Below, in pieces: positions 16,759 to 20,508 of a stretch of DNA of 21,638 nt. This DNA is from a virus. The notes under the pieces are model-generated. The model searched no databases. It saw only the letters and a list, made by a program, of their open reading frames with translations, and was not told the origin of the DNA. Numbering within the stretch: the first letter of the stretch is position 1; each line of letters opens with the position of its first letter. Location of the stretch: the IMG/VR virus record IMGVR_UViG_3300004770_000134, positions 1-21,638 of that record. The stretch is one strand, 5' to 3'. The translations under genes were made by a program, and so were the position numbers.

Positions 16759-16995
16759 TTATTGATTGTAATACGGGACTTTGAAAGGTTTACCATTTAC
16801 CGTAATGTTTATAAAACCTACGGGCGCAGCAGGAAGGCTACCAGAGCCTGTCGTTGCTGTGGTTGCCGATGAGAAGTTCAACAGATTAAGAAAGAACTGT
16901 TGCCAAGCACGAGTCGGGCGTTTGGTTGAGCTATCCAAAAACTCTGACTGCGGGTATGGGTTTGTTTGCGTTGAGCCGTAAATTCCACCAGCCAT
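16759..16995 (-). CDS. small virion-associated protein
   Basis: This encodes 78 residues. It opens with a Pro/Asn/Ser-rich segment, contains a helix (RAWQQFFLNLLNF) and a Ser/Thr/Gly linker, and ends GFINITVNGKPFKVPYYNQ, a C-terminal motif common in small proteins of freshwater and marine podoviruses. AAGGAG lies about 7 bases before the ATG, which overlaps the gp10-like stop as TAATG. It lies where P22 has the tail needle gene 26 but is far too short to be a needle. It may be an adaptor or decoration protein. Confidence 0.72.
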   Translation of the reverse strand: MAGGIYGSTQTNPYPQSEFLDSSTKRPTRAWQQFFLNLLNFSSATTATTGSGSLPAAPVGFINITVNGKPFKVPYYNQ

Positions 16996-18890
16996 TAGTT
17001 TTCTCCTTCAGAAGCTTTAAGGTTGGCAGAAACAATGACCGCTTTCACAGGGTCTGAGACAACGACTTCATACACTCGATCTCGGGCTGTACCCAATCTG
17101 CGCCAAATGGCACGATTCTTGTATTTGCCTTCAAGACCAATAGAAACCCAGTATTCACGCGACCATGTAGAGCCACCGTCATTTGACCAGCGCAACATAG
17201 CTTGAGGGTTTGCACCTACAACTTCTTGATTTAACGGTGTAGTGATACCAGATAAACCAACACCAGGTTGAAATTGAATTTGTAACTCATCAAAAAATTG
17301 ACGTTGCAAATCAGTCACTAAATGAGGGCAGCGGCGCAATCTACGCACGTTTTGACCGTTATCAGTGTAATTAGTGGAGTCAATCTCGTAAATGTTGCCG
17401 TTGGAATAGTCCCCACAGAGAACCATGCCCTGAAACAACGCAGCACAATTACCACGGTGACGCTCATATTGGCCTAAGTTGTTTGTGTACAACCACTTAT
17501 GCCACATACCTGTTGTAACGTCATAAGCCCAAGTCAGGCCGTTTGTGCCGATACTTGGAAATGTCACCACATAAACTTCATGGCCTTCTAATTGATAAGT
17601 CCATGAAATAGCGTCTGAAATCTTTTGGTTGACCAGTGTATTTTCAACTGCGTGAGTTGAGATACGCTGTGGCTGATAGCCGTTCATTTGCATGACTTGG
17701 GCTTGACCACGGCTGTTTTGCGACACATAAGCAAATGAGTTACCCACGCGAGACATGGAAAACTTAGCTGCGATACCGTGTTGCGTAGAAGTGCCTGGAA
17801 TCCGTTGGAATGGGAAAGGCACAGCGCCCACATCCACCCACGCCTCAGATGATGCCTCACCCAACAAATAAACTTCTCGGTGGTCAACAATAAGGGAGAC
17901 AAGGTTATCAGGCGCACCGTCTTTGGCTGAATAGCTGAGAGCAGGGCTAACAGGAGACAAAAGGTTAGAAGCGCCCCATTGTTGGCTATTTGGTCGGTTA
18001 TAGACAAAATAATTGTCCACAATGTCCACAGTATTACCGCCAGTAAACGCACCGTCAGACGATGGAATAACCGTCCAATTTAGGGCATACAAAGTCTCAG
18101 ACGCAACGGTTTGAGAGGTACTGACTGTGTATGTTCCTGTGCCGCCTGTGCCAGTTCCAAGGGCAGTAATCATAGTGTTGGCTGTAACACCAGCGCCTTG
18201 GATTGTCTGCCCAACATAAAGAGTACCGCTAGACACAGCGCTGACTGTCAACGTAGTGCCAGCAATTGCGCCAGTTACAATAGCGCCGCTTGAAGATGTG
18301 TAAAACTGAGAAGAAATAAGGTTTTGGTTAATGTTGATCGTATACGTACCAACACCACCACTACCTGTTCCAAGCGCAGTAATCACGGTTTCTTGAGCGC
18401 CACCGATAGCAAAGAATTGCTGTCCAACAGCAATAGTCCCCGATTTAACAGAAGTAACCGTCAGGGTAGTACCTGATGTTGACCCTGTGAAAATCGCAGC
18501 CGTTTGCGTACCAATAACCCATGTATAACGGTAAGTTCCATCCACAATGTAGACGTTAATTCCGTTGTCAGAAATTGATACCCGACCAGATGTTGAGTTC
18601 AGTTGACCGATGATGACAGGAGTTAACGCAGTATTTAATGCGTAAACGTATGAGCCACACACAGCAACAAGAATATTCCCACCAGACAAAGTACGCAAGC
18701 CGCGCACTTCCTGTTGATTTGGTAAAGTGGCTTGAATTGTCAGCCCAGGCGTTGGGTATAAAGCAACCACGCCACGAGCGCCATCAGGCTTCGTAGGGTC
18801 AACTTCAGGGCGAAAGTTAATACACTCCTGTGCATCTTGATAGATGGAAGGAGCTTCGTAACTTGCGCCAACAAAGCCAAAATCAGCCAT
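16995..18890 (-). CDS. P22 gp10-like tail/DNA stabilisation protein with two inserted modules
   Basis: The 631-residue protein resembles the packaged-DNA stabilisation family (P22 gp10). It starts [25 protein letters not shown], with LYPTPGL, and later has [37 protein letters not shown] and [14 protein letters not shown], the beta-propeller-like signatures of this family. It would close the portal/adaptor channel and hold the DNA in. Residues 132-197 and 203-268 are two copies of a Gly/Thr-rich module; without them the length (about 490) is close to P22 gp10 (472). Its ribosome site, AAGGGAG, lies inside the end of the homing gene upstream. Confidence 0.9.
18087..18497 (-). repeat. two tandem copies of a Gly/Thr-rich module inside the gp10-like gene
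   Basis: Residues 132-197 (18497-18300) and 203-268 (18284-18087) share the pattern F/V-TG-x2-x-GTTLTV-x-V-x-SGT-x-x-VGQ, then ITALGTG-x-GG-x-GTYT, then N/S-Q-x5. The DNA is also partly repeated. This beta-rich module is an insertion relative to P22 gp10 and reappears in the gp4-like gene. Confidence 0.85.
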
Positions 18891-18893
18891 TAA

Positions 18894-19493
18894 TTACTCC
18901 CTTGGCACGTAGGATTTGCCAGCCAAAAGTGTTTTGATGGATGGCAAACTGATGCCATATTGTTTTGAAAGTTCACGAGCAGAAACGCCTTGCTTACGCA
19001 ATTCTCTAATTTCTTGCGCTTGAGACATAGACAATTTGCAACGAGGGCCTTTATCGCCTGTGTAATCTGGACTGCGACCTTTTGCAGCTTTGTCAGCCAT
19101 GTTGTCGGCATGAGTTCCAACAAATAAATGTTTTGGATTGCAACAAGATGGATTGTCGCAAGTGTGCAAAAGAAAACCAGATTCTGATGAATTTCTTGGC
19201 GCATTCCATTGAATGACGCCAGGATTGACAAGATCAAAAATAACACGATGGGCATAGTAAGAGTATTCATTAATTTGAACCCTTCCATATCCTTGTTCAT
19301 TTTTAAGTCCCATCCAATTCCAACATTCATTTTCAGTTTTTTTATCAACTTTTGACCACAAAACTTCAGGCGTGTTTGCTGGCTTTCCTGGAGGTCGAGG
19401 GCCTTCTCCATTCTTTTTTCTCCAGTAATAAGCCTTTGCATATTCTCTTTGTTTCCTGCGTTTTTCTTCAAGTTGTTGCGTTGTTATGTTCAT
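18894..19493 (-). CDS. HNH homing endonuclease between the gp4- and gp10-like genes
   Basis: The gene encodes 199 residues from the ATG at 19493, with AAGGAG 5 bases upstream; the frame also reads into the gp4-like gene, which is a shadow. Features in order are a very basic start (EKRRKQREYAKAYYWRKK), CWNWMG with an RV-x-INEYSYYAHRVIFD segment, an HNH core H110-x-C112-D-N-x2-C117-C118-N-P-x-H122, and GTHADNMADKAAKGR. A C-terminal helix-turn-helix is at about 153-192. It is a mobile homing gene inserted between tail genes. A hairpin over its ribosome site and a nearby TATAAT suggest it is controlled separately from the tail operon. Its 3' end carries the gp10-like ribosome site. Confidence 0.92.
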   Translation of the reverse strand: MNITTQQLEEKRRKQREYAKAYYWRKKNGEGPRPPGKPANTPEVLWSKVDKKTENECWNWMGLKNEQGYGRVQINEYSYYAHRVIFDLVNPGVIQWNAPRNSSESGFLLHTCDNPSCCNPKHLFVGTHADNMADKAAKGRSPDYTGDKGPRCKLSMSQAQEIRELRKQGVSARELSKQYGISLPSIKTLLAGKSYVPRE

Positions 19494-19526
19494 GATTGCT
19501 CCTTTTAAATGAACAATCACATTATA
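19494..19526 (-). promoter_or_regulatory. RBS-sequestering hairpin with an internal promoter for the homing gene
   Basis: On the mRNA strand GATTGTTC (19518-19511) pairs fully with GAGCAATC (19501-19494), with one G-U pair and a 9-base loop. The 3' arm includes the GAG of the AAGGAG ribosome site and abuts the ATG. A perfect TATAAT (19526-19521) lies just upstream. Transcription from it would start near 19514, inside the 5' arm, removing half of the stem. The -35 region is poor. See findings. Confidence 0.6.
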
Positions 19527-19536
19527 CATCAATCCG

Positions 19537-20508
19537 TCAACGGAAGAAACCCCCCGAAAGTATCCAACCAGCATCCTTGGATTTGCCAACCAGCAGCGAA
19601 TCAGGGTAGCGAGATACTTGAGGTGGTTTCATGTTTGTACGTTTCACCGTAGCTTTAGCCTGCGATGCAAACGCATTAATCATCTGAATTTGTGTAGCAC
19701 TTGCTTTGCCATACATAGGCATCAAGCGTTCAGCCAAACACCAGCGCAAGGCGTTTGTATAGCCTTGTGGCAATGCCAAGTTGTCAAAGTAAGTGTTATA
19801 TCTAGCAAAGATTTGATTGGCAAAGATGTGCATCTCACCCTGAGAAGGGTTAGGCCACACATAAATGTTTCCAAGAATCTCTGTTGGCTGGTAATAGATC
19901 GCTTTAGGCCAAGGGCCATTCAACGTCTTGAGGCCAATCATCTCGTAATCTTCAAGATTCAAGATTGCAACAGGGTAATCTAGACCGCCGTTGACAATTG
20001 GCACACCGTTGGAGTTAGTGTTAATACGTACAAAAGACGAATCAATCGCCAATGGTCGCTCGTAATAACCTGTGATTGTGGTGGATGCAACGGTCTGGCT
20101 GACGTTCAATTGGTATGTGCCAACTTCGTTCACGTTGTTGCCTGCGCCTGTTAAAAAGCCAACAATGCGCGTTCCTGCGGTAATACCCGAGCCGCTAAGA
20201 TACTGATTCAGGTTAATAGCGCCAGAGTTAATGCCCGTGACGGTCAAGACGTTGCCAGTAATAGACCCTGTAAAGCTGGCGTTGATGTTACCAGTAGGGC
20301 CAATCGTGTATTGCGTTTGACCAGGCACAATCGGAAATACGATCTCGGTTTTGTAGAAAACCATCATATCTTCGTTTGACCATTGGTCAATCATATCGTT
20401 GAGCATATCAAAAGCGTCTGCGGCGGCTTCAGGAGTAGGAGATTCCCCTGCCTCCAAAGCGCCGATGTCTTTTAATGCTCTGCTAATGATGTCAAATGGT
20501 ACAGCCAT
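19537..20508 (-). CDS. P22 gp4-like tail accessory (head-tail adaptor) protein with an inserted module
   Basis: The 323-residue protein starts with MAVPFDIISRALKDIGALEAGE, followed by A-x-DAFDMLNDMIDQWSNEDM and IVPGQTQYTIGP. It later contains LPQGYTNALRWCLAERLMPMYGK, all hallmarks of the gp4 tail accessory family, which binds the portal and starts tail assembly. P22 gp4 is 166 aa; residues 77-147 here are a Gly/Thr-rich insertion like those in the gp10-like protein, and the C-terminal part is also longer. P22 gp4 has muramidase activity; I cannot show that here. A weak GGG precedes the start. The homing gene follows it, separating it from the gp10-like gene. Confidence 0.88.
   Translation of the reverse strand: MAVPFDIISRALKDIGALEAGESPTPEAAADAFDMLNDMIDQWSNEDMMVFYKTEIVFPIVPGQTQYTIGPTGNINASFTGSITGNVLTVTGINSGAINLNQYLSGSGITAGTRIVGFLTGAGNNVNEVGTYQLNVSQTVASTTITGYYERPLAIDSSFVRINTNSNGVPIVNGGLDYPVAILNLEDYEMIGLKTLNGPWPKAIYYQPTEILGNIYVWPNPSQGEMHIFANQIFARYNTYFDNLALPQGYTNALRWCLAERLMPMYGKASATQIQMINAFASQAKATVKRTNMKPPQVSRYPDSLLVGKSKDAGWILSGGFFR
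20068..20280 (-). repeat. third copy of the Gly/Thr-rich module, inside the gp4-like gene
   Basis: Residues 77-147 read ASFTGSITGNVLTVTGINSG, then YLSGSGITAGTRI, then GTYQLNVSQTVASTTITG. The order of motifs matches the two copies in the gp10-like protein (F-TG-S-x-x-G-x-x-LTV, SG, G-x-G-I/V-TA-x-T, GTY, SQTVAS). It splits IGPTGNI from YYERPLAI, which look like one continuous strand region in the parent protein. Confidence 0.8.

Follow-up and report, generated by a model that had tools for sequence, protein, structure and literature searches.

A promoter and masking hairpin predicted to confine translation of a free-standing HNH homing endonuclease gene to its own transcript in P22-like phages

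For the intron-borne homing endonucleases I-TevI, I-TevII and I-TevIII, a hairpin in the long transcript closes the ribosome site of the endonuclease gene, and RNA started at an internal promoter does not form the hairpin (PMC2988022). A promoter combined with a hairpin that covers the ribosome site is likewise described for two free-standing genes, segB of T4 and mobE of Aeromonas phage Aeh1, the latter also encoding an HNH enzyme, and hairpins close T4 e, soc and other genes on early transcripts (PMC2988022). A review of the T4 mobile elements notes that none of the T4 endonucleases is served by an early promoter (PMC2988022). Here, we describe a leader with corresponding elements in front of an HNH endonuclease gene outside this group of phages.

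The window, i.e., the whole stretch of DNA that was analysed, is the entire IMG/VR record IMGVR_UViG_3300004770_000134 (21,638 bases), and carries on its minus strand, in this order, a gp4-like gene, the HNH gene and a gp10-like gene (Table 1). An identical order is found in the complete genome of a near relative, podovirus ctn9Y15 (MW202674), within an extended series of terminase, portal, coat and tail genes, which places the insert in a structural operon by gene content; the operon is presumably late, and the label P22-like, given to the phage in a first-pass annotation, is right by the same measure. Residues 198–267 of the gp10-like protein match within the gp4-like gene with 42% identity, which looks like the copying of a single added domain into the two. 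Matches to bacterial genomes give no decisive pointer to the host, as they comprise four MAG contigs with mixed labels (two Methylococcales/Methylococcaceae, one beta-proteobacterium, and one Bacteroidetes). A Methylococcaceae MAG contig (L254) contains these tail genes as well as an endonuclease leader that has TTGACA-17-TATAGT and the hairpin; this contig and L251 are a hint of methanotrophs as hosts.

The endonuclease matches Pfam HNH_3 (26.2 bits, cut-off 24.8) and zf-His_Me_endon (28.4, cut-off 27), its match to HTH_7 falls under the cut-off, and its PHROG matches are HNH endonuclease families. The H/C/N core is conserved across 14 aligned relatives, and a search of solved structures returned one short off-domain match only. 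The gene is intergenic and does not lie within a group I intron, and the flanking ORFs are intact. The HNH_3 score, the PHROG families and the insertion between otherwise adjacent genes thus agree with its earlier description as a free-standing HNH gene.

Table 1. Features of the endonuclease leader and neighbouring genes in the window
Feature	Position	Strand	Basis or remark
gp4-like (head-tail adaptor-like) gene	19537..20508	-	Pfam SU10_adaptor, phrog_12985; directly upstream of endonuclease gene
Weak -35 position TTTCTT, spacing 17	19544..19549	-	Inside gp4-like gene end; 2/6 match
TGA stop of gp4-like gene	19539-19537	-	Sequence
-10 element TATAAT	19521..19526	-	Sequence; predicted RNA start G19514; directly before 5' arm
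Masking hairpin, 5' arm GTGATTGTTC	19511..19520	-	RNAfold; compensatory changes; arm-swap test
8-bp stem, 5' side GATTGTTC	19518-19511	-	Sequence
Hairpin loop, 9 nt, AUUUAAAAG	19510-19502	-	Sequence
Shine-Dalgarno AAGGAG	19504-19499	-	Sequence; 5 nt before ATG; 5-6/6 match in nearly all relatives
8-bp stem, 3' side GAGCAATC	19501-19494	-	Sequence
Masking hairpin, 3' arm GAGCAATCAT	19492..19501	-	RNAfold; comparative tests; includes half of AAGGAG and first two start-codon bases
Endonuclease ATG	19493-19491	-	Sequence
Free-standing HNH homing endonuclease gene, 199 aa	18894..19493	-	HNH/zinc core; C-terminal helix-turn-helix-like end
gp10-like head-closure/stabilisation gene	16995..18890	-	phrog_578 head closure Hc3; directly downstream of endonuclease gene

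The leader spans 43 nt from the gp4-like stop to the endonuclease ATG. The 8-bp stem with a 9-base loop that had been noted here, covering part of the AAGGAG and ending at the ATG, is present in full, and RNAfold extends it to a 10-bp hairpin (GUGAUUGUUC/GAGCAAUCAU) in 61-, 91- and 141-nt contexts. The predicted folds keep the ribosome site closed in long transcripts, as had been proposed for read-through mRNA. With z scores of -1.7, -2.5 and -1.7 in the three contexts, and with 13, 2 and 9 of 200 shuffles equally good, the hairpin lies at the 1–7% level of shuffles, so that the window by itself is only mildly beyond chance and cannot decide the matter. RNA that started at G19514 would lack the outermost four bases of the core 5' arm. 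It is predicted to refold into a weaker stem, GUUCAU/AUGAAC (-3.6 to -4.3 kcal/mol), which leaves the AAGGAG in its loop and pairs the AUG. The mean unpaired probability of the Shine-Dalgarno sequence is 0.84 in this RNA versus 0.42 in read-through RNA, and the cost of opening the region from the Shine-Dalgarno sequence to the AUG falls from 11.5 to 4.0 kcal/mol. The open site expected for the shorter RNA is therefore supported by the predicted fold, but not the expectation that about four pairs are left, since the RNA refolds; the small stem that holds the AUG counts against full opening.

The TATAAT is perfect, and the -35 element is weak as first described, with two of six positions matching at a spacing of 17 bp. 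A TTGACG at 19540-19535 was considered as an alternative -35 element and discarded, because at only 8 bp from the TATAAT it cannot serve. A promoter scan at the usual thresholds listed nothing at the window leader, and the leader family to which the window belongs has neither a good -35 element nor a TGn extended -10; the window promoter may be weak or dependent on a phage factor.

A scan with the endonuclease yielded 80 loci, each of them between a gp4-like and a gp10-like gene, and 80 further loci, with and without inserts, came from a scan with the gp4-like protein. In relatives with the HNH insert the distance from gp4 stop to endonuclease ATG is 37–69 nt, and the leader follows one order: an optional TTGACA, a TATAAT-like box, 5' arm, loop, AAGGAG, 3' arm, and ATG. 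In ctn9Y15, the same device is built on a different stem (GGTTGGTT/AACCAGCC). Empty gp4/gp10 junctions have a gap of 0–10 nt with no stem and no TATAAT-like box. As the leader elements occur only at junctions with an insert, stem and TATAAT travel with the endonuclease gene, in line with the comparison of carriers and non-carriers proposed at the outset, and the stem is kept in carriers by compensatory changes and not lost without them.

For more distant HNH relatives in Gordonia BrutonGaster, Pseudomonas, Caldibacillus, Myxococcus and Brevibacterium phages, the gene overlaps its upstream neighbour or directly adjoins it, and a leader of this kind is absent; in Microcystis phage MaMV-DL02 and Gordonia phage Nordenberg the gap is present and the device is not evident. 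Near 2926-3001 of L065, L066 and L067 the endonuclease start codon is ATA, not ATG, with the -10 box and hairpin intact, and these copies are possibly silenced elements. In L034 and L038, the endonuclease is separated from the gp10-like gene by a further insert of roughly 1 kb or more. A stronger gp10-like Shine-Dalgarno sequence in insert-bearing phages, which would have suggested that the endonuclease is not translated, was not seen.

Of 39 distinct leaders of this HNH gene, 38 have a TATAAT-like box 20–31 nt before the ATG; the counts at control starts are 0/31 and 0/44 for gp10, 1/83 for gp4, and 8/267 for other ORFs. TTGACA is matched at five or six of six positions, at exactly 17 bp, in 14 of 40 distinct leaders (0.2 expected), and a TGn extended -10 occurs in 12, one of which also has a good -35 element, so that one or the other feature is found in 25 of the 40. 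TTGACA-17-TATRAT or an extended -10 in these leaders points to a promoter of the host sigma-70 type, and not of the T4 late or middle type, a reading that assumes the usual sigma-70 consensus for the host. Box and spacing are conserved, and the predicted RNA start falls inside the 5' arm.

Masking was compared by opening energies, which consider the RNA by itself and ignore gp4 translation, co-transcriptional folding and protein binding. In read-through context the mean SD-to-AUG opening energy is 10.1 kcal/mol for endonuclease leaders versus 5.7–6.5 for control genes. Truncated leaders require 3.2–3.4; with the cut at -20 the value is 3.4, a drop of 6.7 compared with 1.4–1.6 in controls, and leaders with shuffled arms average 5.9. 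Individually, 30 of 40 leaders lie at or under 5% of shuffled leaders (Wilcoxon p 7e-10). Masking is not above shuffled controls in L017, L021, L081, L031, L051, L076 and L080; in the first three of these, the arm pairs with codons 2–4 instead, and a search for relatives of L080 returned L080 alone.

Since the register of the stem slides between families, a single MAFFT alignment of the leaders was left out of the pair counts, and the evidence for pairing comes from folds of each sequence and from arm swaps, in which the 5' half of one leader is joined to the 3' half of another. Own arms give an opening energy of 10.3 kcal/mol versus 6.8 ± 0.37 for permuted arms, with none of 20,000 permutations reaching the own value, and for 22 divergent leaders the values are 9.8 and 6.2 ± 0.52 (z = 6.9; 0 of 50,000), although the distinct leaders are related to each other, so that the permutation counts are not strict probabilities. 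The same exchange has no effect at 69 gp4/gp10 control starts (5.0 vs 5.2). By these modelled energies the arms are co-adapted: swapped arms lose masking. Pair types differ at the same stem position, and G-U pairs are tolerated and frequent. Arms that have changed and still pair include GATTGTTC/GAGCAATC in the window, GGTTGTTC/GAGCAACC in L004, and GTTAGTTC/GAGCTAAC in L005, and further pairing arms are GATGAA/TTCATC (L019) and AAGATTC/GAGTCTT (L049). Judged from sequence comparison, the same device appears in dozens of related freshwater phages, kept by co-evolving sequences.

In 24 of 40 leaders, the local fold pairs the start codon with one or more bases of the -10 hexamer, and in the TATGAT families (L006, L007, L018, L019, and others) the UAUGAU box pairs with AUCAUG across the start codon. 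A promoter never transcribes its own -10 box, and a mask of this kind is therefore absent from promoter-made RNA by construction.

We regard the leader as a self-contained expression control that belongs to the endonuclease gene, masked on read-through RNA and open on RNA from its own promoter, with a probability of roughly 0.78. Read-through RNA of the tail operon would include the 5' arm, whose pairing with the Shine-Dalgarno sequence and the start codon would keep ribosomes off. RNA from the internal promoter, with a start near 19514, would lack most of the 5' arm, the site would be open, and the endonuclease would be made. With a host-type promoter, the gene could be readable as soon as the DNA enters, and would be mute on the late tail message. 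Given the host sigma-70 type of the promoters in relatives and the structural nature of the neighbouring genes, early or low steady expression, and silence under the strong tail-gene message, are likely.

Several other explanations of the leader can be considered. The hairpin could mask the site while the window TATAAT is no working promoter, which would leave the gene nearly silent and reliant on RNA processing or on a hairpin that rarely breathes open. The weak -35 element, the lack of TGn and the empty promoter scan agree with this, but an unused box would decay, and the TATAAT-like box is instead kept at a fixed distance in nearly all leaders, most of them with a good -35 element or TGn, so that we consider a dead promoter unlikely. 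That the inverted repeat is a DNA operator, for the helix-turn-helix of the endonuclease itself or for another repressor, and the RNA hairpin a by-product, seems more doubtful still. In its favour, all families have the repeat next to the -10 box or overlapping it, the C-terminal region of the protein resembles a helix-turn-helix, and I-TevI, which represses its promoter, binds an operator lying over it (PMC2988022). On the other hand, arm sequences differ between families while pairing is kept, the frequent G-U pairs would be mismatches in a DNA palindrome, and the 3' arm includes the Shine-Dalgarno sequence or the start codon.

Translational coupling, where ribosomes ending the gp4-like gene open the hairpin and re-initiate, would lead to expression of the endonuclease with the tail genes, and the short distance from stop to ATG (37–69 nt) could allow it. 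The 5' arm begins 16 nt after the gp4 stop in the window, and 10–44 nt (median 21.5) after it in the relatives; the leading edge of a terminating ribosome usually falls short of 16 nt and of this median, and in the window it should therefore not melt the hairpin. Families with long gaps keep the same device, and coupling leaves the -10 box unexplained, which makes this reading highly improbable. A chance origin, in which an AT-rich leader has a fortuitous hairpin and TATAAT, has in its favour that the window fold is at only the 1–7% level of shuffles, and is of negligible probability because it is refuted by all comparative tests, i.e., box counts, -35 spacing, opening energies, and arm swaps.

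The gap between gp4 and gp10 is an insertion hot spot (L082, L087, L090, L093, L107). Phages with a gp4 identical to that of the window instead have a GIY-YIG gene, a two-gene cassette with an ORF of 360–402 aa, or another small ORF, and other phages have in this gap an unrelated GIY-YIG endonuclease whose C-terminal end is helix-turn-helix-like (L171–L205; e.g., L145:2753-2786). In 13 distinct GIY-YIG leaders, TGGTG(G)TATAAT (CATAAT in one) ends 6 nt, in rare cases 7 nt, upstream of the ATG, and a Shine-Dalgarno sequence is absent; other members of the family are without this box. At such a distance RNA would start with the A of the ATG or with a neighbouring base, as a leaderless mRNA, and the sequence predicts a start used on the gene's own transcript only, which we offer as a lead. 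A wider reading would combine these features into a portable cassette for translation from its own promoter only, lineage-wide, with the -10 box as anti-start-codon arm, a host sigma factor, early action and muteness on the late tail message, and with the unrelated GIY-YIG endonucleases of the same slot converging through leaderless starts. We consider the chances of this wider reading to be even.

Compared with the T4 systems, the likeness lies in the switch. That the window gene follows exactly the logic of I-TevI, as the first-pass annotation had it, holds for the mechanism, with a predicted closed and open site, and probably not for the timing, given the host sigma-70 type promoter and the structural operon. 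I-TevI shows the same switch but is not the sole precedent, as segB and Aeh1 mobE show it too (PMC2988022). The I-Tev genes are in group I introns, are read from T4 promoters of the middle or late type and become open late, whereas the window gene is intergenic, encodes an HNH enzyme (I-TevI is GIY-YIG), and lies in a structural operon with a host sigma-70 type promoter. Closer in setting are segB and mobE, free-standing homing endonuclease genes with promoter and masking hairpin, but they reside in T-even phages, have T4-type late promoters, and were each described as a single case, not as a family whose arms co-vary. As for T4 e and soc, translation is likewise switched by the choice of promoter, but these are ordinary phage genes that are opened late. 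The start site of a mobile gene is hidden in RNA entering from outside promoters also in IS10, IS50 and IS200, which encode transposases and not homing endonucleases, and no homology is claimed.

The open-access papers that were searched contained no description of such control in P22-like phages. New at this locus are the separate lineage, arms that co-vary over dozens of phages, a host-type promoter in a structural operon, and a -10 box within the mask. About 40 natural variants are available for testing how a selfish gene settles in a host operon without being driven, and they also bear on why such genes must stay off late messages. If the proposed control is correct, it is a conserved portable part of the element and not a one-off. 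The device looks independent of I-TevI, segB and mobE, and its timing would be reversed relative to the T4 systems; hairpin-plus-promoter control of homing endonucleases would then have arisen outside the T-even phages, with the opposite timing.
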